From NCBI GenBank assembly GCA_001512435.1, contig LFRS01000051.1, forward strand, positions 356-61,226: a stretch of 60,871 nucleotides of DNA, given 5' to 3'. A program made the position numbers and the translations under genes. This DNA is from Halothermothrix sp. DTU029 (GTDB lineage: Bacteria > Bacillota > Halanaerobiia > Halanaerobiales > DTU029). Positions 46,429-58,326 of the stretch are shown piece by piece. A model generated the notes under the pieces. That model was not told where the DNA came from, searched no databases, and worked only from the letters and a program-made list of their open reading frames with translations. Each line of letters starts with the position of its first letter. Positions within the stretch are counted from its first letter, which is position 1.

Positions 46429-47808
46429 TTGAAACTGGATTATTTAAAGAGTTTCAAGGATTTATTTGCTGATTATACGGAATTACGGTGGCAGGAAAAC
46501 ACCAATGTTTTTCTAAAATTGCTGAATGGTACTCTGATAGAAAATGGTAAAAGAACGGTGGGAGGTGTATCTGCCAGGGTCTATAAGGATGGCTTTTTTG
46601 GTTTTGCCTCCAGTCCCTTAAGTGATGCAGATAAAATTAAAGAGATTGTCAGAAAAGCTGGAGAGAATGCCTCTCTCCTGGCAGGCCTGGGCAGGAAAGA
46701 TATAGGGAAATTAGCACAAGAGGGCCATGAGCTTATTAAGGATTTTAGTACAGTAAAAGCCAGGGTTTCCCGGAAAGAGATGATCGACTTTTTGAGGGAA
46801 TTAGATAATTATACCAGGAGTAAATATAGTGACCTCAAGGCCAGTAACTTTGTGCTGAATAGCCTGGATATGGAGAAAAACCTGGTGACCTCTTTTGATA
46901 CATATGCCTATACTATGGTTCCCAGAACCATCCTGGTAATAGTCATGACAATAGAAAAAGATGGGGTTATTTATGATTATTATGATGTAATAGGTGGCCT
47001 GGGACAATATGAGGATCTTTTTACTGATCCGGAGAATTTCTATGGCCAGATCGATACCATGTATAAAAGGCTGCGGGAGAAGGCAGAGGGGATTTACCCG
47101 GAGGCTGGTTATAAGGAGGTTATACTGGATTCCAGAATATCCGGTATCCTGGCCCATGAAGCCATCGGCCATACCACTGAAGCAGATTTTGTAAAAAGCG
47201 GTTCTATAGCCAGGGATTATCTGAATGAGAGGGTGGCTACTGAGATTGTCAATCTGGTTGATTTTGCTGCTGAATATGATAATAAGCCCTGTCCTGTCCC
47301 GGTCTATATCGATGATGAAGGGACCAGGGCGGAAGATGTGGTTATTATCCAGGATGGGATTCTCAAGAACTACATGAATAATAAGGAACTGGCCTTAGAG
47401 TTTAATACTTCACCAACTGGTAATGCCAGGGCCTATACTTTCTCTGATGAGCCACTGGTAAGAATGAGGAATACAGCCATTTTACCCGGTGAAAACAGCC
47501 TGGAGGAGATGATTGCCTCTATTGAAGATGGTTATTATTTCATTGATACAAATAATGGCCAGGCAGACGCTACCAGTGAGTTTATGTTCGGGGTTACTTT
47601 TGGTTATGAGATCAAGAATGGCAAATTAGGTAGGGCTATTAAGGATACTACCATTTCTGGAGTAGCCTTTGATGTTTTAAAAACAGTTAGCATGATCTCA
47701 AATGAGATGTATTGGTCCAGTGGGGGCATGTGTGGCAAAAAGCAGATGATTCCGGTGGGATTTGGCGGCCCTGCTATAAAATGCAAAGTCAATATAGGAG
47801 GTAAGTAA
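46429..47808 (+). CDS. tldD: TldD family metalloprotease
   Basis: A 459-residue TldD-type subunit. The zinc motif HEAIGH (H243, E244, H248) in LAHEAIGHTTEAD is intact, and the C-terminus ends with the conserved glycine-rich GFGGPAIKCKVNIGG. TTG 46429 follows AAGGGGGG. It pairs with the adjacent TldE/PmbA to form a heterodimeric protease that processes modified peptides. No obvious peptide substrate gene is nearby. Confidence 0.92.
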   Translation: MKLDYLKSFKDLFADYTELRWQENTNVFLKLLNGTLIENGKRTVGGVSARVYKDGFFGFASSPLSDADKIKEIVRKAGENASLLAGLGRKDIGKLAQEGHELIKDFSTVKARVSRKEMIDFLRELDNYTRSKYSDLKASNFVLNSLDMEKNLVTSFDTYAYTMVPRTILVIVMTIEKDGVIYDYYDVIGGLGQYEDLFTDPENFYGQIDTMYKRLREKAEGIYPEAGYKEVILDSRISGILAHEAIGHTTEADFVKSGSIARDYLNERVATEIVNLVDFAAEYDNKPCPVPVYIDDEGTRAEDVVIIQDGILKNYMNNKELALEFNTSPTGNARAYTFSDEPLVRMRNTAILPGENSLEEMIASIEDGYYFIDTNNGQADATSEFMFGVTFGYEIKNGKLGRAIKDTTISGVAFDVLKTVSMISNEMYWSSGGMCGKKQMIPVGFGGPAIKCKVNIGGK

Positions 47809-47809
47809 G

Positions 47810-49096
47810 ATGGAATTACTGGATAAATGTCTTGCTCTGTTGAAAGAAAAAGGTGCTGATGAAGGAGAGGTTTCCCTTACTCATGTACAAAATGAAGAGA
47901 TGGAATTAAAGAATGGCAATATAGATCTCTTAAGATCCAGGGATGAGTATTATCTTAACCTGAATGCAATCATTGAGAAAAAAAGGGCCAGTATCCAGAT
48001 CAATAAAATTGATGAAGAAGCCATTGCAGAGGCTGTCAGCGAACTGATACACAATGCTGAAAATTCCCAGATAGATGAAGCCAATGGGGTTAGTGACCAG
48101 GTTCAGGAAAGGGATTTTAATAATTGCAAAGATAATTATGATCCAGAGCTAATGTATAAAAGATTGGAGAATTTTAATAAAGAGGTTATAGCTGCATATC
48201 CGGATCTGGTCCTGGAAGGGGCAGTCCTGGAGTACCAGAAGAGATACAATTATTACCGGAATTCAAAGGGTGTTAACCTGTCATCCAATCATGATAATTA
48301 TTTTTTTAGTACAAGTTTTTTTGGCAGGAGGAACAGGGAAACCTCTTCCATGAATTATACCGGTATTGCACTTGAAAACCTGGATGAGGAGCTATATGAA
48401 CTGGCCTCCCTGCCCTACTTGCTGCGGGAATCTGTTGAACATCTGGATGCCAGGATTATTGATAATAAAAAGTTTACTGGTGACCTTATTATTACACCAG
48501 ATTGCCTGCGGAGCATTCTCTATTCCTTGCTCTCCCATTTAGGAAATGATATGCTAATTGCCGGCACTTCATATTTTAAAGACAGTCTGGACAAAAAAGT
48601 CCTGGACGGGAAATTTACTTTGAAAACAGAACCGGTTTCAGACCTTTTAGCAATTAAGGATTATTATAGTGGTGATGGAGTAGTAAACCGTAATGATTAT
48701 ATCTTTGCAGAGGGTGTTTTAAAGAATTACCTCCTGGATTTTTATGGGTCCAGAAAAACCGGTTTACAAAGAGGTCCTTCCCTGGGCAGCAATCTGGTGG
48801 TTGAGGCAGGGGATAAAAGTATTGCTGAAATGGTTGAGTCTGTAGAGAGGGGAATTATTCTGGCCAGGTTTTCTGGTGGCCAACCGGCCAGTAATGGGGA
48901 CTTTTCCGGTGTAGCCAAAAACAGTTATTATGTTGAGGATGGAGAGATAAAGTATCCTATCAAGGAAACCATGATCAGTGGTAACCTTTTTAGTCTTTTC
49001 CAGAATATTATGGGGATCAGTAAAGACAGGATCAATTTTGGTTATTCTTTAATGCCCTTCCTCCATGCTAAGGAGATAGTCGTTTCCTCCAGATAA
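47810..49096 (+). CDS. pmbA: TldE/PmbA family protein
   Basis: A 428-residue partner subunit of TldD; it lacks the HExxxH zinc motif, as usual for PmbA/TldE. Recognisable segments are FTGDLIITPDCL and the C-terminal SNGDFSGVAKNSYYVEDGEI. It starts one base after the tldD stop, so the pair is coupled. Confidence 0.9.
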   Translation: MELLDKCLALLKEKGADEGEVSLTHVQNEEMELKNGNIDLLRSRDEYYLNLNAIIEKKRASIQINKIDEEAIAEAVSELIHNAENSQIDEANGVSDQVQERDFNNCKDNYDPELMYKRLENFNKEVIAAYPDLVLEGAVLEYQKRYNYYRNSKGVNLSSNHDNYFFSTSFFGRRNRETSSMNYTGIALENLDEELYELASLPYLLRESVEHLDARIIDNKKFTGDLIITPDCLRSILYSLLSHLGNDMLIAGTSYFKDSLDKKVLDGKFTLKTEPVSDLLAIKDYYSGDGVVNRNDYIFAEGVLKNYLLDFYGSRKTGLQRGPSLGSNLVVEAGDKSIAEMVESVERGIILARFSGGQPASNGDFSGVAKNSYYVEDGEIKYPIKETMISGNLFSLFQNIMGISKDRINFGYSLMPFLHAKEIVVSSR

Positions 49097-49140: not shown

Positions 49141-49169
49141 TTGACTTAATTCTTTCCTTCTGTTATTAT
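49141..49169 (+). promoter_or_regulatory. Sigma-A promoter of the purine operon
   Basis: TTGACT (49141-49146), exactly 17 bases, TATTAT (49164-49169); the transcript would start near 49176, just before the guanine aptamer. Confidence 0.65.
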
Positions 49170-49198
49170 ATACATGTAATCGGGAAAACTGAATATTA

Positions 49199-49267
49199 CC
49201 TCATATAATCGTGGGGATATGGCCCACAAGTTTCTACCAGATAGCCGTAAACTATCTGACTATGAGG
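49199..49267 (+). promoter_or_regulatory. Guanine (purine) riboswitch aptamer
   Basis: All parts of the purine aptamer are present: P1 CCTCATA (49199-49205)/TATGAGG (49261-49267), P2 GTGGG/CCCAC with loop GATATGG, junction AAGTTTCTAC, P3 CAGATAG/CTATCTG with loop CCGTAAA. The specificity base in GACTATG is C (49260), which selects guanine or hypoxanthine over adenine. Expected to turn purine synthesis off when guanine is plentiful. Confidence 0.95.
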
Positions 49268-49387
49268 GAAGTGTACTTAGGGTTCCGCATCTGTATTTTT
49301 TGTACAGGTGGCTGGTCCAAGCGGTACAGATATATCTTATATATATATTACACCGAAGGGATAAAAGCCCAGGCGGGGAGGTTCTAC
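49268..49387 (+). promoter_or_regulatory. PRPP riboswitch (ykkC subtype 2b)
   Basis: Conserved ykkC blocks: GTGTACTTAGGGTTCCGC (from 49271), the P2 helix ATCTGTA/TACAGGT, GGCTGGTCCAAG (49310-49321), GGTACAGA closing P1, then TTACACCGAAGGGATAAAAG and CCCAGGCGGGGAGGTTC. The last block is shared with the terminator stem. Among ykkC types, the purine operon and the guanine aptamer just upstream point to PRPP, the first substrate of the pathway, rather than guanidine or ppGpp. PRPP binding should prevent termination. Confidence 0.88.
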
Positions 49388-49427
49388 TCATGGCTAAATA
49401 AGTAGATTTTCCCGCCTGGTTTTTTTA
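49369..49427 (+). terminator. Riboswitch-controlled terminator before purD
   Basis: CCAGGCGGG (49369-49377) pairs with CCCGCCTGG (49411-49419), with a further TTCTACT/AGTAGA pairing inside, then seven T. The 5' arm is part of the PRPP aptamer, so aptamer and terminator exclude each other. Confidence 0.9.
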
Positions 49428-49485
49428 TTTTGAGGAGATACTTTTTTCTGACCAGGCTTATTTATAACGAAAGGGGGGCTTATAG

Positions 49486-50793
49486 ATGAAAGTACTGGTC
49501 ATAGGTAGTGGTGGCAGGGAGCATGCCCTTGTCTGGAAATTGGCCTGCTCCCAGAAGGTAAAAAAAATATATATAGCACCGGGAAATCCAGGAACTGGAG
49601 ATTGGGGAGAAAATATACCCATCGAGGCACTGGATTTTTCTGCTTTAGCGAAATTTGCCAGGGAAAAGGGGGTTGATCTGGCAATAGTTGGTCCCGAGGA
49701 ACCCCTGGCCAGAGGTATAGTAGATTATTTTCAGGAAAAGGGTTTAAGAATTTTTGGCCCTGATAAAAAGGCAGCCCAGCTGGAAGGCAGCAAGGTTTTT
49801 TCCAAAGGGTTTATGAAAAAGTACCAGATCCCTACAGCAGAATATGAGGTATTTACTGATCCTGAAGAGGCTATAGCCTATATAAAAGAAAAGGACTTTC
49901 CAATTGTCATTAAAGCCGAAGGCCTGGCTGCCGGAAAAGGGGTAATTGTTGCCTGGACTATGGAAGAGGCCCTGGAAGGGATTAATTCGATCCTGGTGGA
50001 TAAGGTCTATGGTTCAGCTGGGGCCAGGATTGTAGTGGAAGAGTTTTTAGCCGGGGAGGAGGCTACTATACTGGCCTTTACTGATGGCAAAACCATTGTA
50101 CCCATGCTGGCCTCCCAGGATCATAAACAGGTTTTTGACAATGACCAGGGTCCTAATACAGGTGGCATGGGGGCTTATGCTCCGGCACCTATTGTTGATG
50201 AAGCCTTGATGAAAAGGGTTTTTCAGGAAATCCTCCAACCTACTTTAAAGGGTTTGCAGGAGGAAGGTATTGATTTTAAAGGGGTATTATATTGTGGCTT
50301 AATGATTAAAGACGGGGTACCCAAAGTCCTGGAATATAATGTGAGATTTGGTGACCCGGAAGCCCAGGTGATTTTACCCCTGTTGAAGACTGACCTGGTG
50401 GAGATAGCAGAGGCTGTAATAGAAGGCCGTTTAGAGGAATTAGAAATAGAATGGTATGACCAGAAGGCCCTCTGTGTAGTAATGGCCTCTGGTGGTTATC
50501 CGGGAGAATATGTTACCGGGAAGGAAATCACTGGTCTGGAGGAACTCAGTGCCCGGGAAGATATCCAGGTTTTCCAGGCCGGGACTAAATTAGAGGATGG
50601 TAAACTCTTGACTGCAGGAGGCAGGGTCCTGGCAGTGACTGCCTGGGGGGCTTCTTTTAGAGAGGTTATAGAAAAAGCCTATGCAGGAGTGGAGAAAATA
50701 AAATTTCCTGATGCTCATTTTCGGCGGGATATAGGAGGAAAAATATTTAAAGATAGAGAAAAATATAAGCAAAAGAGCTTACGGGAGGTATGA
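49486..50793 (+). CDS. purD: Phosphoribosylamine-glycine ligase
   Basis: A 435-residue ATP-grasp ligase for purine step 2. [19 protein letters not shown] is the typical N-terminus, GPEEPLARG and [18 protein letters not shown] are family blocks, and VRFGDPEAQ is the metal-binding segment. AAAGGGGGG lies before ATG 49486. It is first in the operon, unlike Bacillus, where purD is last. Confidence 0.96.
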
Positions 50794-50797
50794 TAAG

Positions 50798-51319
50798 ATG
50801 TCAGCACTTGTAGGTATTCTCATGGGTAGTGATTCTGACCTGCCGGTTATGAAGGATGCTGCCCAGGTCCTGGAAGAATTTCAGCTTCCTTATGAATTAA
50901 CTGTTATCTCTGCCCACCGTAATCCGGAGAAGGTATTTCAATATGCCAAAAGTGCCGGAGAGAGAAGGCTGAAAGTAATAATCGCCGGAGCAGGAGGAGC
51001 TGCCCACTTAGCTGGTGTAATTGCTGCCAATACAGTCTTACCTGTGATAGGTGTTCCCATTAAAGGCTCTAGCTTGAGCGGGCTAGATTCCTTATTATCC
51101 ATTGTCCAGATGCCTGGTGGTGTACCGGTTGCTACTGTGGGGATTAATGGGGCAAAAAATGCCGGCCTTCTGGCTGTCCAGATGCTGGCCCTGGCTGATA
51201 AAGCTTTACAGGAAAAATTGGCAGCCTATAAAGCAGCCATGACCGAGAAGGTAGATAAGATTGCTGCAGAAGTGGAAAGACTGGGTTATCAGGAGTACCT
51301 GCAGAAAAGGGGAAATTAA
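50798..51319 (+). CDS. purE: PurE, N5-CAIR mutase/AIR carboxylase
   Basis: A 173-residue PurE with GSDSDLPVM (10-18), ISAHRNP (37-43) and [10 protein letters not shown]. This looks like class I (N5-CAIR mutase), which needs PurK, yet no purK lies in the operon; either purK is elsewhere or the protein works as a direct AIR carboxylase. Four-base gap after purD, two-base gap before purB. Confidence 0.94.
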
Positions 51320-51321
51320 TC

Positions 51322-52713
51322 ATGTATGAACGGAATATTTTTGAGAATATTAGCCCCCTGGATCACCGTTATTCCCTGCCCGGGGAGGATTTTGAGCAAT
51401 ACTCCCGCTATTTATCGGAAAAAGCCAGGATCGGTTATCAGGCCCAGGTAGAAGGGGCCCTGGTAAAAGTACTGGCCAGAAGGGGCATCTGTTCAGAGGA
51501 GATTGCCCGGGAGATCCTGGAGGCCATAGAGGAGATCAGTCCAGAAGAGGTTTATGAGGAAGAGGGAAAAACCAGACACGATATCCGGGCCCTGGTAAAT
51601 TGCATTCAGAGAAGGGTCAGTCCGGCAGCCAGGCCTTATGTGCATTTTACGACAACTTCTTTTGACATTGTAGATACAGCTAATTCCCTCCGCTTCAAGG
51701 AAGTAAGTGAAAAACTGCTTCTGCCGGAATTATATGAGTTGGAGAAAATATTAATGGAGATTGCCCTGCGGGAAAAGGAGACCCTGCAGATCGGGAGAAC
51801 CCATGGCCAGCATGCTGTACCCATCAGCTTTGGTTTTGCCATGGCTGAATATGTGAGCAGGCTGGGTAACAGGATCAGGGAGATCCGGGAGAAGAGCCAG
51901 AGGCTGGTAGGGAAGATTGCCGGTGCTGTTGGGGCCTATAATGCCAGTTATCTTTTCTTTGCTGACCCACTGGAATTTGAAAAAGAGGTTCTGGCAGAAC
52001 TGGGCCTGGAGCCTGCCACTCATTCTACCCAGATAGTTGAGCCAGAACCTTTGGCCGATTATATCCATTCCCTGGTTTCCTGTTTTGGGGTCCTGGCTAA
52101 TCTCAGTGATGATATGCGTCATTTACAGCGTTCGGAAATCGGTGAGGTGGGGGAATATTTTGCTGCTGACCAGGTAGGTTCTTCTACTATGCCCCATAAG
52201 CGGAATCCCATAAATTATGAAAATGTTAAGAGCCTCTGGAAAAAGTTCATGCCTGGTATGATGACAGTCTATATGGACCAGATTTCTGAACACCAGAGGG
52301 ATTTGACGGATTCTGCTTCCGGCCGGTTCCTGCCAGAGATAGTAGTGGGCCTCTTGATGGCAGTTAAAAGGCTGCAGAGGGTCCTGGCCAAGATGAGTGT
52401 AGATAAAGAGAATCTGAAGAAGAATTTTGAGCAGAATAAGGAGATGATAGTGGCAGAACCACTATATATCCTCCTGGCTTCTTATGGCCATCCCGATGCC
52501 CATGAAGCAGTACGGAGATTGACTCTGGAGGCAGAAAAACAAGGTTTGGCCTTGCGGGAAGTCCTCAAGGATCATGAGGAATTAAGGGGGTATTGGGAGA
52601 ATTTTACGGAAAAACAAAGGGACTTATTGTTAAATCCTGAACAATATACCGGGATTGCTGCCCGGAAGACAGAGCTGGTTGTGGATTACTGGAAAAAAGA
52701 GTTAAGAATATAA
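51322..52713 (+). CDS. purB: Adenylosuccinate lyase
   Basis: A 463-residue fumarase/aspartase superfamily lyase, used twice in AMP synthesis. The signature SSTMPHKRNPIN carries the catalytic serine loop; THGQHA holds the catalytic histidine and TTTSFD the substrate loop. N-terminus NIFENISPLDHRYS is purB type. Start two bases after purE. Confidence 0.94.
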   Translation: MYERNIFENISPLDHRYSLPGEDFEQYSRYLSEKARIGYQAQVEGALVKVLARRGICSEEIAREILEAIEEISPEEVYEEEGKTRHDIRALVNCIQRRVSPAARPYVHFTTTSFDIVDTANSLRFKEVSEKLLLPELYELEKILMEIALREKETLQIGRTHGQHAVPISFGFAMAEYVSRLGNRIREIREKSQRLVGKIAGAVGAYNASYLFFADPLEFEKEVLAELGLEPATHSTQIVEPEPLADYIHSLVSCFGVLANLSDDMRHLQRSEIGEVGEYFAADQVGSSTMPHKRNPINYENVKSLWKKFMPGMMTVYMDQISEHQRDLTDSASGRFLPEIVVGLLMAVKRLQRVLAKMSVDKENLKKNFEQNKEMIVAEPLYILLASYGHPDAHEAVRRLTLEAEKQGLALREVLKDHEELRGYWENFTEKQRDLLLNPEQYTGIAARKTELVVDYWKKELRI

Positions 52714-52726
52714 GGGGGAATCAGCT

Positions 52727-53434
52727 ATGGAGAAAAAAGAGTTAATGTATGAGGGTAAGGCAAAGATTGTCTACAAAACTGCTGATGAAGATAAGGTTAT
52801 AGTAAAATTTAAGGATGTGGCAACAGCCTTTGATGGCAAGAAAAAAGGGGAGATTAAGGAAAAGGGCTTATTGAATACAGCTATTTCAGCTATATTCTTT
52901 GAGCTCCTGGAAGAGAAGGGGATCCCCACTCATTATCTAGAACTTATTGCTGCTGATGAAATGCTGGCCAGAAAGGTAGAGATAATTCCAATTGAAGTAG
53001 TAGTCAGGAATATTGCAGCCGGCAGCCTGGTGCGGAGACTGGGTTTTCCGGAGGGGGAAGTAATGGAAAAGCCGATTTTGGAGTTTTACTACAAGGATGA
53101 TGCTTTAGGTGATCCCTTGATGAATGAATATCATATTTTTGGCAAGAAACTGGCCACAGCAGAGGAATTGAAGATAATCAAGAAAATGGCTTTTGACATT
53201 AATGAGGTCCTCCTGGCCTATCTTAAAGAAAAGGGTATAGATCTGGTGGATTTTAAACTGGAATTTGGCCGGGATAAGGAGGGCAGGATCTACCTGGCAG
53301 ATGAGATTTCTCCAGATACCTGCCGCTTCTGGGATAGCGAAACTAAGGAAGTACTGGATAAGGATCGGTTCCGGAAAGATATGGGTAAAATAGAGGATGC
53401 CTACCGGGAGATACTGGCCAGGCTCCAGGCTTAA
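52727..53434 (+). CDS. purC: SAICAR synthetase
   Basis: A 235-residue enzyme joining CAIR and aspartate. MYEGKAKIVY, EVVVRNIAAGS (about 87-97) and ADEISPDTCRFWD (about 190-202) are the family motifs. Length is standard. Thirteen bases after purB; a 116-base gap precedes purF. Confidence 0.96.
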   Translation: MEKKELMYEGKAKIVYKTADEDKVIVKFKDVATAFDGKKKGEIKEKGLLNTAISAIFFELLEEKGIPTHYLELIAADEMLARKVEIIPIEVVVRNIAAGSLVRRLGFPEGEVMEKPILEFYYKDDALGDPLMNEYHIFGKKLATAEELKIIKKMAFDINEVLLAYLKEKGIDLVDFKLEFGRDKEGRIYLADEISPDTCRFWDSETKEVLDKDRFRKDMGKIEDAYREILARLQA

Positions 53435-53550
53435 GGCAAAAAGTTTTTATTCTTGCTTTAGAGGGGTTAAATTAAAGGGACTTGATTGTTTTTGCAAGGC
53501 TTTTATAAGCGAATGCAAGGTATAATTCAGAATAAGGGAGCTGTTATTGA

Positions 53551-54948
53551 ATGGCAGAATTCTATAATCTTGCAGAGGATAAGATGAAAGAGGAATGTGG
53601 TGTCCTGGGTATTTATTATCCAGATAAAGCCGAGGATATCTCTATACTGGCCTATCTGGGGCTCCTGGCTTTACAGCACAGAGGCCAGGAAAGTGCCGGT
53701 ATCTGTACTAATCAGGGAGGCAGTTTTAAAATCCATAAGGGCATGGGCCTGGTGGAGAATGTCTTTAATCAGGATAAGTTGGCAGAGTTGAAGGGAGAAA
53801 TGGCCATTGCCCATGTCCGCTATTCTACCAGTGGCTCAACTCTGGCGGCCAATACCCAACCCTTATTAATCAGCTGTATCAAGGGAGATCTGGCCCTGGC
53901 CCATAATGGAAACCTGATTAACGGCAAGGAATTAAGGCTAAGCCTGGAATCCCATGGTTCTATCTTTCATTCTACCCTGGATACAGAGGTTATTGCCCAT
54001 CTGGTGGCGCGTTCTTTTGAGGATAATATTATAGGTGCCTTACAGCAGAGCCTGTATCAATTAAAAGGTGCTTACAGCCTGGTGGCCTTGACAAAAGACA
54101 GCCTCCTGGCTTGCCGGGATCCTTATGGTTTCCGGCCCCTGGCCCTGGGAAAATTGGGTAATGGTTATGTAGTTGCTTCTGAGACCTGTGCTTTTGATCT
54201 AATTGGGGCGGAGTTTATCCGGGAAGTAGAGCCAGGTGAACTATTGATAATCAATAAAGAAGGTATCAAAAGCATTAAGTATGCCAGTGAAAGGCCGGGC
54301 CGGTTCTGTGTTTTTGAATTTATTTACTTTGCCCGCCCTGATAGTCATTTTCTCGGGCAGAATGTCCATCTGGTCAGAAAGGCCATGGGCAGGGAACTGG
54401 CTGCTGAGATGAATATCGAGGCTGACCTGGTAGTACCGATACCTGATTCCGGTAATGCAGCTGCCCTTGGCTTTGCTGAGGAATCGGGAATTGATTTTTC
54501 CATGGGTATAATGCGCAACAGGTATATAGGCAGGACCTTTATCCAGCCAATGCAGGAGATCCGGGATTTGAAAGTTAAGATTAAATTAAGTCCCGTAAAA
54601 GAGATTATAGAGGGGAAGAGGGTTATCCTGGTAGATGATTCCGTTGTCCGGGGGACTACCAGTAAACAGATTATCAGCAGTGTCAGGGATGCTGGCGCCA
54701 CAGAGGTACACCTGGCCATATCTTCACCACCAGTTAAAGAGCCCTGTTTCTATGGATTGGATACTTCCAAACGTAAAGACCTGATTGCCAGAGAGATGGG
54801 TCCGGAAGAGATAGCCAGATATATTGGGGCTGATTCTTTAACCTATCTTAGCCATGAAGGCCTTTTGAAATCTATTAATACAGAAAAAACAGGCCTTTGT
54901 ACAGCCTGTTTTACCGGAGAATATCCTATAGAAGTAAAGAATAATTAA
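53551..54948 (+). CDS. purF: Amidophosphoribosyltransferase
   Basis: A 465-residue enzyme for the committed step, PRPP plus glutamine to phosphoribosylamine. A 15-residue propeptide precedes the nucleophile C16 (KEECGVLGIY). The PRPP loop is VILVDDSVVRGTTS. Four cysteines for an oxygen-sensitive [4Fe-4S] cluster are present (RFCVFE, EPCFYG, LCTACF), so it is the Bacillus type. A TATAAT at 53521 could serve an internal promoter but has no good -35. Confidence 0.96.
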   Translation: MAEFYNLAEDKMKEECGVLGIYYPDKAEDISILAYLGLLALQHRGQESAGICTNQGGSFKIHKGMGLVENVFNQDKLAELKGEMAIAHVRYSTSGSTLAANTQPLLISCIKGDLALAHNGNLINGKELRLSLESHGSIFHSTLDTEVIAHLVARSFEDNIIGALQQSLYQLKGAYSLVALTKDSLLACRDPYGFRPLALGKLGNGYVVASETCAFDLIGAEFIREVEPGELLIINKEGIKSIKYASERPGRFCVFEFIYFARPDSHFLGQNVHLVRKAMGRELAAEMNIEADLVVPIPDSGNAAALGFAEESGIDFSMGIMRNRYIGRTFIQPMQEIRDLKVKIKLSPVKEIIEGKRVILVDDSVVRGTTSKQIISSVRDAGATEVHLAISSPPVKEPCFYGLDTSKRKDLIAREMGPEEIARYIGADSLTYLSHEGLLKSINTEKTGLCTACFTGEYPIEVKNN

Positions 54949-54961
54949 GGGGGGAAGGGGT

Positions 54962-55990
54962 ATGGGCTTAAATTATAGTGATGCCGGGGTAAATATAGAT
55001 GCCGGAAATCAATTTGTAAAAAAGATTAAAAAGGATGTAGAGGAAACCTTTAGTCCGGCAGTTTTAACGGGAATTGGTGGCTTTGGTGCCTTATATGCAC
55101 CAGACCTGGCTGCTTATAAGGAGCCGGTTTTTGTTTCCGGTACTGATGGTGTCGGGACAAAACTGAAGATTGCCTTTCAGATGGATAAACATGATACTAT
55201 AGGTATAGACCTGGTTGCCATGTGTGTTAATGATATCCTGACAGCCGGGGCCAGGCCGCTCTTTTTCCTGGATTACCTGGCTACTGAGAAACTGGATGTA
55301 GAAAAGGCTTCAGCTATTGTTTCCGGAATTGCCAGGGCCTGTAAGGAAGCTGGCTGCTCTCTGATTGGAGGCGAGACTGCAGAAATGCCTGGTTTATACC
55401 AGTCTGGGGAGTATGATCTGGCTGGTTTTGCCGTAGGTATTGTGGACAGGGAGAAGATGATTACCGGGGAAAGGATAAAAGCCGGGGATAAGATAATTGG
55501 CCTGGCATCCAGCGGCTTCCATAGCAATGGCTATTCCCTGGTCCGGAAGGTATTCCTGGAAAAGGCAGGCCTGAAGTTGGATGAGCCTCTGGGAGAAGGA
55601 GGAGAATCCCTTGGTGAAATTCTTTTACGGCCTACCAGGATTTATGTCCAGACAATTTTAAAACTGATTGAGGATTTTGATATTAAGGGTCTGGCCCATA
55701 TTACCGGGGGAGGGCTCCTGGAGAATGTTCCCCGGATTTTTGCGAAAGGTTTGACTGCCAGGATAGAAAAGGATAGCTGGCCGGTAGATAAGGTGTTCAG
55801 GGAATTGCAGAACCTGGGCGGGATAGCAGACCAGGAGATGTACCGGACTTTTAATATGGGTATTGGAATGGTAGTAATCGTGAAGGAAGAAGAGGCTGCA
55901 GACTTCCTGGAAGCAGCCCGCGGACTGGGAGAAGAGGCTTATCTTATTGGAGAGATAAGCCAGGGAGATGCAGGGATTATTATCGAGTAG
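54962..55990 (+). CDS. purM: AIR synthetase (FGAM cyclo-ligase)
   Basis: A 342-residue PurM with LNYSDAGVNIDAGN start, GTDGVGTKLKIA (metal/ATP region, about 60-71), GGETAEMPGLY (about 138-148) and LAHITGGGLLENVPR. It follows purF by 13 bases. Its substrate FGAM needs PurS/Q/L, whose genes are not in this window. Confidence 0.96.
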   Translation: MGLNYSDAGVNIDAGNQFVKKIKKDVEETFSPAVLTGIGGFGALYAPDLAAYKEPVFVSGTDGVGTKLKIAFQMDKHDTIGIDLVAMCVNDILTAGARPLFFLDYLATEKLDVEKASAIVSGIARACKEAGCSLIGGETAEMPGLYQSGEYDLAGFAVGIVDREKMITGERIKAGDKIIGLASSGFHSNGYSLVRKVFLEKAGLKLDEPLGEGGESLGEILLRPTRIYVQTILKLIEDFDIKGLAHITGGGLLENVPRIFAKGLTARIEKDSWPVDKVFRELQNLGGIADQEMYRTFNMGIGMVVIVKEEEAADFLEAARGLGEEAYLIGEISQGDAGIIIE

Positions 55991-56051
55991 TTATTGCATT
56001 GATTTGCTGGCTGGGGAAGATTACTTATCTACAGATAGAGGTGTTGGAAGG

Positions 56052-56654
56052 ATGTTAAAAATTGGAGTACTGGTCTCCGGTAATGGGAGTAATCTCCAGG
56101 CTATTATTGATAAAATAGAAGCCGGAGAAATCCAGGCTGAGATAAGTATTGTTATCAGTGACCGGGAAGAGGCCTTTGCTTTAAAGAGGGCTGCCAGACA
56201 CGGGATAGAAAACAGGTACATAGAGCCGGGAAGTTTTAATAGCAAAAGAGAATATGAGGAAAAATTGGTACAGCTTTTCAGGGAAAAAGAAGTAGACCTG
56301 GTGGTTATGGCAGGCTTTATGCGGATTCTTGGCCCATATTTTATAGGAGAGTACAGGCAGCGGATTATGAATATCCACCCTTCCCTCCTTCCTGCTTTTC
56401 CTGGTTTACGGCCACAGCTGCAGGCCCTGGAACATGGGGTAAAGGTAAGTGGTTGTACAGTGCACTTTGCCGATGAAGGCATGGATACAGGACCAATTAT
56501 TCTACAGGGAGTGGTCCCTGTACTGGATGATGATACAGAAGAAAGTCTAAGTGGCCGGATTTTAGAGAAAGAACATGAGCTCTATCCAGAGGCTATTAGA
56601 CTCTATAGTGAAGGCAGGTTAAAGATTGAAGGCAGGAAGGTCAGGATTTTATAA
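56052..56654 (+). CDS. purN: Phosphoribosylglycinamide formyltransferase
   Basis: A 200-residue folate-dependent formyltransferase. Catalytic residues are in MNIHPSLLPAFPG (N, H) and DEGMDTGPII (D). Start ATG 56052 follows GAGGTG by eight bases; the reading frame extends upstream to 55968 inside purM but without family sequence. Confidence 0.95.
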   Translation: MLKIGVLVSGNGSNLQAIIDKIEAGEIQAEISIVISDREEAFALKRAARHGIENRYIEPGSFNSKREYEEKLVQLFREKEVDLVVMAGFMRILGPYFIGEYRQRIMNIHPSLLPAFPGLRPQLQALEHGVKVSGCTVHFADEGMDTGPIILQGVVPVLDDDTEESLSGRILEKEHELYPEAIRLYSEGRLKIEGRKVRIL

Positions 56655-56751
56655 AGAGCAGGATATTATAGATTTCTTACTTTACTATACTCTTTGCGGA
56701 GAGGAATAATATTTTGGTGTAAATGTTTAATTGAGAAAGGAGAGAGAAACA

Positions 56752-58326
56752 ATGGCCAGGATAAAAAGGGCCTTGCTCAGTGTTTCCAATAAAGAAGGAA
56801 TTGTTGATTTTGCCCGGGAGCTGGAAAACCTGGGTATTGAGATAATTTCAACAGGGGGTACCTATAGATTATTGGCAGAGGCTGGAGTAAGGGTTATTCC
56901 CATAAATGAGGTGACCGGTTTTCCGGAGATGATGGATGGACGGGTCAAGACACTGCATCCCAGGATCCATGCCGGTATACTGGCTCTAAGGGATAAGGGA
57001 GAACATCTGGCAGAGTTGAGAGAACAGGGTATAGAAACTATTGATCTGGTGGTCTGTAATCTCTATCCCTTTGCTGAGACCATTGCCAGAGAAGGTGTGA
57101 CCCTGGCAGAAGCCGTTGAGAATATAGATATTGGCGGCCCTACCATGATCCGGGCTGCTGCCAAAAACTTTAAGGATGTTGCAGTAGTTGTAAGCCCGGC
57201 TGATTATGCTGATATTATCAAAGAATTAAAGGATAATGACTCAACCCTCAGTGAGGAGTTAACTCTGAAACTGGCTTATAAGGCTTTCCGGCATACAGCA
57301 GAATATGATTACTTGATCCAGGATTATTTGAATAAACTTGTCCATAAGACAGAGGAAGGAGACTTCCCTGAAATATTACTGGATAAATACCAGAAAAAAT
57401 TTGACCTCCGCTATGGAGAGAATCCACACCAGAAAGCAGTATTCTATCAGGAACTGGAGGAAAGTGAACCCTCTGTCACAAGTGCCAGACAGCTTTATGG
57501 GAAAGAGCTGTCCTTTAACAATATAAATGACAGTAATGGTGCCCTGGAATTGGTGAAGGAATTTACCGATATTCCAGCAGTAGCTATAATAAAACATGCC
57601 AATCCCTGTGGTATGGCAACAGGAAGCAGCCTGCTGGAGGCATACAGGAAAGCCTATGAGGGGGATCCCCTCTCTGCCTATGGAGGTATCATTGCTTTAA
57701 ATGAACCGGTTACAGAAGAAGTAGCCAGAGAGATTGCCGGAGAAAACAGGTTTTTTGAAGTCATTATTGCTCCAGCTTATTCGGAAGAAGCCCTGGAGAT
57801 TCTGAAAAACCGCTGGAAAAATATCAGAATCCTGGAAACAGGAGCTTTGTTTATAAACCGGGATAAGCCAGGTTATGATATGAAAAAGGTAGTTGGAGGT
57901 TTACTGGTCCAGGAGAGAGACTTATATGTCTTAAAGAAGGAGGATCTGCAGACTGTTACCAGGGTTAAGCCAACAGAAGAACAGCTGAAGGACCTGCTTT
58001 TTGCCTGGAAGGTGGTAAAACATGTTAAATCCAATGCTATTGTTATGGCTAAAGATGGCATGATAACCGGTGTTGGAGCAGGACAGATGAGCCGGGTGGA
58101 TTCCATGATTATTGCCGGTGAAAAGTCTGCCGGCAGACAGGAAGGCGGGGTAGTGGCCTCAGATGCCTTTTTCCCCTTCCCTGATGCAATAGAAGAGGCG
58201 GCCAGGAAGGGTATTAAAGCCATTATCCAACCTGGTGGTTCTATCAGGGATGCTGAAGTAATAGAGATGGCAGATAAGTATGGGATAGCCATGGTCTTTA
58301 CAGGAGTAAGACACTTTAAACACTAG
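56752..58326 (+). CDS. purH: Bifunctional AICAR transformylase / IMP cyclohydrolase
   Basis: A 524-residue enzyme for the last two steps to IMP. The N-terminal cyclohydrolase domain has STGGTYRLL and MMDGRVKTLHPRIHAG; the C-terminal transformylase has KHANPCGMA with the catalytic Lys-His pair. ATG 56752 follows AAAGGAGAG. Last gene of the operon, followed by a strong terminator. Confidence 0.97.
   Translation: MARIKRALLSVSNKEGIVDFARELENLGIEIISTGGTYRLLAEAGVRVIPINEVTGFPEMMDGRVKTLHPRIHAGILALRDKGEHLAELREQGIETIDLVVCNLYPFAETIAREGVTLAEAVENIDIGGPTMIRAAAKNFKDVAVVVSPADYADIIKELKDNDSTLSEELTLKLAYKAFRHTAEYDYLIQDYLNKLVHKTEEGDFPEILLDKYQKKFDLRYGENPHQKAVFYQELEESEPSVTSARQLYGKELSFNNINDSNGALELVKEFTDIPAVAIIKHANPCGMATGSSLLEAYRKAYEGDPLSAYGGIIALNEPVTEEVAREIAGENRFFEVIIAPAYSEEALEILKNRWKNIRILETGALFINRDKPGYDMKKVVGGLLVQERDLYVLKKEDLQTVTRVKPTEEQLKDLLFAWKVVKHVKSNAIVMAKDGMITGVGAGQMSRVDSMIIAGEKSAGRQEGGVVASDAFFPFPDAIEEAARKGIKAIIQPGGSIRDAEVIEMADKYGIAMVFTGVRHFKH

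Follow-up and report, generated by a model that had tools for sequence, protein, structure and literature searches.

How could one terminator answer to two ligands, guanine and PRPP? The question is raised by the leader of a purine operon in Halothermothrix sp. DTU029. In the window, the 60,871-nucleotide stretch of DNA that was analyzed, positions 49199-49426 hold a guanine aptamer, a ykkC aptamer that follows without a gap (49267/49268) and one terminator, with the purine operon downstream. The first-pass annotation had taken this arrangement for a known tandem guanine-PRPP logic gate, and the covariance matches, diagnostic bases, gene context and published system agree with that view. The features of the leader and operon are as follows.

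49141-49169, forward strand: sigma-70-like promoter candidate with an extended -10 (TTGACT, 17 nt, TATTAT), from a consensus scan.
49199-49267, forward strand: guanine aptamer with all conserved blocks (RF00167); P1 is 49199-49205 with 49261-49267.
49260-49267, forward strand: shared strand, comprising the 3' strand of guanine P1 (from C74) and the 5' strand of the extended P0, from complementarity and tandem covariation.
49268-49384, forward strand: PRPP-type ykkC aptamer (subtype 2b, predicted; RF00442), including the P0 core 49268-49269 with 49383-49384.
49270-49354, forward strand: diagnostic bases of the 5' part, A5 (49270), G6 (49271), G48 (49321), C49 (49322) and C77-C78 (49353-49354), compared with the contacts in PMC6031431.
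49372-49381, forward strand: diagnostic bases of the 3' part, G96 (49372), G101 (a purine; 49377) and A103-G104-G105 (AGG; 49379-49381), compared with the same contacts.
49369-49426, forward strand: intrinsic terminator with 5' arm about 49369-49388, 3' arm about 49401-49419 and U-tract 49420-49426 (seven U), from the minimum free energy fold and the sequence.
49385-49393, forward strand: 3' strand of the extended P0, which mimics the 5' strand of guanine P1 and lies in the upper terminator stem and loop.
49486-58326, forward strand: controlled operon purD-purE-purB-purC-purF-purM-purN-purH, from open reading frames and NCBIfam.

Covariance search matched positions 49181-49282 of the forward strand to RF00167 with 90.6 bits (E 2.8e-15) against a gathering score of 37. 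The specificity base (C74) is the C at 49260, within GACUA, which marks the guanine type; the complete guanine aptamer with C at 49260 described earlier is thereby borne out. The promoter-like site agrees with the consensus at 10 of 12 positions and has a TG ahead of the second hexamer. Such a match is weak alone (two found vs 1.4 expected in shuffles) and its position is favorable. Transcription is expected to start near 49176, and the leader probably begins just upstream of the guanine aptamer. A TldD/PmbA-like metalloprotease gene pair (window 46429-49096) ends about 45 bases upstream of this promoter.

For the second aptamer, the covariance search that had been suggested as a check returned a match to RF00442 (Guanidine-I) at 49266-49377 of the forward strand with 60.9 bits (E 1.2e-10), about 2 bits under a gathering score of 63 that is set for guanidine-I. 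RF00442 is the sole Rfam model of the ykkC scaffold with a match here and does not separate the subtypes. PRPP-like singlets elsewhere score in the same range, so the shortfall is best read as a subtype effect; its reading as a failed match was ruled out, as both the name and the cut-off of the model refer to guanidine-I. With the guanidine-I riboswitch (ykkC subtype 1) the window aptamer shares the P1/P2/P3 scaffold and conserved loops, but its position 49 carries a pyrimidine where guanidine-I has A, and it also has P0 tails and a purine-synthesis context.

Published base numbers, mapped onto the window by conserved blocks and not by structure-based alignment, locate a pyrimidine at 49, G96, a purine at 101, A103-G104-G105 and A5-G6, as in PRPP aptamers. 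According to the crystal structure, A5, G6, C77, C78, purine 101, A103, G104 and G105 contact or shape the pocket, and G96 is shared by over 97% of PRPP aptamers while ppGpp aptamers have another base there (PMC6031431). By these bases the second aptamer fits the PRPP subtype and is predicted to bind PRPP, in keeping with the PRPP-class blocks that had been read close 3' of the guanine aptamer. If it were instead a ppGpp aptamer (subtype 2a) or another ykkC variant, the gate would read guanine plus starvation. That reading draws on a scaffold common to the subtypes, a covariance model blind to them and the fact that the single base change G96A switches specificity (PMC6031431). It is nevertheless very improbable, as G96, the A103-G104-G105 block and the pyrimidine at 49 are those expected of a PRPP aptamer, and the genes reported to accompany ppGpp aptamers are those for branched-chain amino acids and glutamate synthase. 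Position 49372 is a G, contrary to the ppGpp subtype, and position 96 is likewise a G in all 106 readable loci of the 111 tandems among the matches listed, the other five being unparsed.

The terminator 5' arm overlaps both the PRPP-contacting bases and P0, and the region 49195-49430 folds at -81.4 kcal/mol vs -60.3 kcal/mol for shuffles (z -4.3). The earlier description of one terminator whose 5' arm overlaps the PRPP aptamer stands, except that 49369-49377 covers no more than the lower part, about half, of the arm. Neither the terminator scan nor the fold of 49195-49430 revealed a second terminator between the aptamers, where the first-pass annotation had seen none either; the automatic scan also overlooked the real terminator at 49369-49426, probably because the loop exceeds its limit. 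All eight downstream genes were assigned by NCBIfam to the purDEBCFMNH set named before, seven over their cut-offs and purB just under (315.5 bits vs 326). The best PurL match of the genome is of the long single-chain type, in an open frame of 1284 aa on another contig (G000:C111:49992-51923). No purine aptamer was found near it, the genome's two purine aptamers being elsewhere.

The hallmarks of published tandems are present: the guanine aptamer immediately precedes the PRPP aptamer, the P1 stems are only a few nucleotides apart, one shared terminator overlaps the PRPP aptamer, and purine genes follow. Judged from its sequence, the element is a guanine-PRPP tandem riboswitch (IMPLY gate) of a known kind, whose ligand responses would be those of its homologs by analogy. 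The gate and its IMPLY behavior are published, and a homologous tandem with the same layout was assayed with both ligands (PMC5912903, Sherlock 2018). In that system, B. megaterium codA, guanine turns expression OFF, whereas PRPP turns it ON and is dominant. The codA tandem has the same aptamer order, a very short distance from P1 to the PRPP aptamer, the same single terminator overlapping the PRPP aptamer and purine genes downstream. The window copy differs in heading purDEBCFMNH, in belonging to a genome close to Halanaerobiales bins and in having a second copy before an NCS2 permease.

P0 is the helix formed by the ends of the PRPP aptamer (PMC6031431), and its core in the window, 49268-49269 with 49383-49384, directly adjoins guanine P1. 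Beyond this core, CUAUGAGG (49260-49267) can pair with 49385 (U) and 49387-49393 (CUCAUGG), leaving one A bulged at 49386. Guanine P1 and the extended P0 are mutually exclusive pairings, and the 3' strand of the extension sits in the terminator 5' arm and loop. The same genome has a second guanine-PRPP tandem (L002; G000:C131 1480-1693, minus strand), with the gene for an NCS2 purine permease (PF00860) immediately downstream. Its counterpart strands, ACGAGGGAA/UUCCUUCGU, form nine continuous pairs, and inspection showed that a U to C change in P1 relative to the window is compensated by an A to G change in the partner strand. The first-pass annotation had proposed that the guanine aptamer influences how the second aptamer folds; a covarying strand shared by P1 and the extended P0 makes this proposal specific. 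The aptamers, subtype bases, exclusive pairings and their conservation are observations from sequence and comparison.

Ligand binding, response directions and kinetics in Halothermothrix sp. DTU029 are modeled here on the published homologous system. With guanine bound, 49260-49267 would be locked in P1 and the PRPP aptamer would keep a very short P0; if PRPP is missing, the terminator would then form and the operon would be OFF. With PRPP bound, or with guanine P1 open, 49260-49267 would pair with 49385-49393 and lengthen P0. The extended P0 would close the PRPP aptamer and keep the terminator 5' arm from the 3' arm, turning the operon ON, and PRPP would prevent the terminator from forming whether or not guanine is bound. 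For a transcript ending at 49394, the folds with P1 and with extended P0 differ by only 1.4 kcal/mol; the completed terminator exceeds the extended P0 in stability by about 20 kcal/mol. Since the terminator dominates once complete, the mechanism has to be a kinetic one, and the choice would fall while the polymerase crosses about 49386-49410. Equilibrium folding is unusable as a truth table, the finished terminator dominating all states. The logic described earlier, with expression ON unless guanine is present without PRPP, agrees in its IMPLY type with the published system. Its state with neither ligand is less certain because nearest-neighbor energies strongly favor the completed terminator: kinetics would set the outcome, which may be ON as in the published gate or could be mostly OFF.

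Mutual exclusion of P0 and P1 was put forward on the basis of mfold predictions for a single sequence, the Thermoanaerobacter mathranii tandem (PMC6031431, Knappenberger 2018; PRPP structure 6CK5), in which P0 is likewise formed by the aptamer ends. In contrast to the folds of one sequence, the extended P0 was compared here over 111 tandems and 35 unique singlets. The tandem set comprises 111 loci among the matches listed, after removal of two chance pattern matches (L067 and L147) and of eight further loci that were cut short or ended unusually on the 3' side. Across these loci, the duplex of P0 plus extension has a mean native energy of about -8.6 kcal/mol vs -7.5 to -7.8 kcal/mol when partners are swapped. 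The swap tests treated cluster representatives as independent; the clustering, done on the remaining parts of the RNA, reduces relatedness and does not remove it. On this basis P0 plus extension gave z -4.7 to -5.4 over 45-91 cluster representatives, with 0 of 5000 permutations as good. For the extension alone, partner swaps among cluster representatives gave z -2.8 to -3.9, and between 0 and 12 of 5000 permutations did as well. At least four pairs running from the P0 core into the P1 3' strand, with one defect allowed, occur in 106 of the 111 tandems listed vs a mean of 29 when shuffled.

PRPP-type singlets, which have no purine aptamer at the gathering threshold (40 loci, 35 unique), served as positive control, and in the 35 unique ones the extension alone covaries with z -5.4. 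In PRPP riboswitches (singlets such as L177, L199 and L213), a covarying P0 reaches well past the short helix of the crystal structure. P1 strands from 29 singlet guanine aptamers, at least two of which (L319 and L320) are probably unrecognized tandems, pair worse with tandem partners than the native strands do (-2.99 vs -3.78 kcal/mol; Wilcoxon p 1e-5). At the median tandem locus, about 31% of singlet P1 3' strands would pair as well as the native one, a high background that arises because singlet strands are GAG-rich anyway. For the same reason, the invariance of the tandem P1 strand is weakened as proof of sharing.

Two other accounts of the coupling bear on these results. Sherlock et al. 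(PMC5912903) put forward a purely steric alternative, in which the tandem is real and guanine-bound P1 clashes with the 5' tail of the PRPP aptamer, with no strand exchange past the P0 core. The junction of P1 and P0 without spacer at 49267/49268 suits this account, yet the complementarity runs into the P1 strand at the great majority of the loci listed and covaries there, and the extension covaries also in singlets that have no guanine aptamer to clash with; we therefore regard steric coupling alone as unlikely. It is harder still to credit that the two aptamers are independent and the guanine aptamer a relic without effect on the terminator. The guanine aptamer indeed has no expression platform of its own between the aptamers, but its conserved blocks are all intact in the window and in the second copy, and all 35 ykkC matches of the order keep a guanine aptamer at nearly constant spacing. 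The sequence comparisons make it likely that the guanine-PRPP tandem controls purDEBCFMNH transcription through one terminator, with the 3' strand of guanine P1 (49260-49267) as the shared element. Because the gate and the P0/P1 exclusion were already published, the comparative test strengthens an existing proposal.

Such tandems had been called rare, a description that the distribution contradicts. In the order of the window, 29 of 38 genomes have ykkC matches, 35 in total, and comparison of coordinates placed every one directly 3' of a purine aptamer match. The genome of the window and each of its two congeners hold two tandems. Named genomes yielded at least 119 matches to the tandem pattern; most of them come from Bacillota, and bins of Halanaerobiales have near-identical copies. 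Outside Bacillota, tandem-like guanine plus ykkC elements occur in four Chloroflexota records (L037, L073, L081 and L111), three of them labeled Ktedonobacterales; the L073 record is given as a complete chromosome. Both Rfam models match L081 (75.8 and 50.7 bits), and at the threshold used L037, L073 and L111 show just the purine match. In L176, L180, L184, L186 and L188, the purine aptamer that forms a tandem with a PRPP-type aptamer seems to have GGCUA in place of the conserved GACUA, possibly with a changed ligand.

Downstream gene clusters at 103 tandem loci among the matches listed were xpt (39), NCS2 permease (31), purE (10), purD (8), pbuX (7), purL (5) and MTAP/PNP-like (1), with two unassigned; the downstream gene was picked by script and clusters were named by representatives. 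In this pattern-limited sample, salvage and import (xpt 39, NCS2/PbuX 38 of the 103 listed) are no less common than de novo synthesis. A 2018 paper held that tandem-associated genes serve only steps up to IMP, and the tally suggests that this physiological rationale is too narrow. We consider it fairly probable that the logic of the class combines a three-way exchange between guanine P1, extended PRPP P0 and the terminator 5' arm with a role largely in the salvage and import of purines (xpt, pbuX, NCS2) and not in de novo synthesis alone.

PurR is the protein that senses PRPP in Bacillus. No PurR over the cut-off was found in the genome of the window, where the best match to the NCBIfam model is partial, covers the phosphoribosyltransferase part and reaches 42.6 bits vs 258.7; only 2 of the 21 genomes searched (this one and 20 relatives) have a match over the cut-off. 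With no clear PurR in the genome, the RNA may do the whole PRPP-sensing job there. The element itself is one more case of a known RNA logic gate. A 2022 review counted 192 tandems and described the structural changes as not established (PMC9481103), and in the literature searched we found nothing later on these structural changes. The comparison lends evolutionary support to a specific mechanism for the coupling that the review called unestablished, and singles out nucleotides 49260-49267 and 49385-49393 as those through which the coupling would run.
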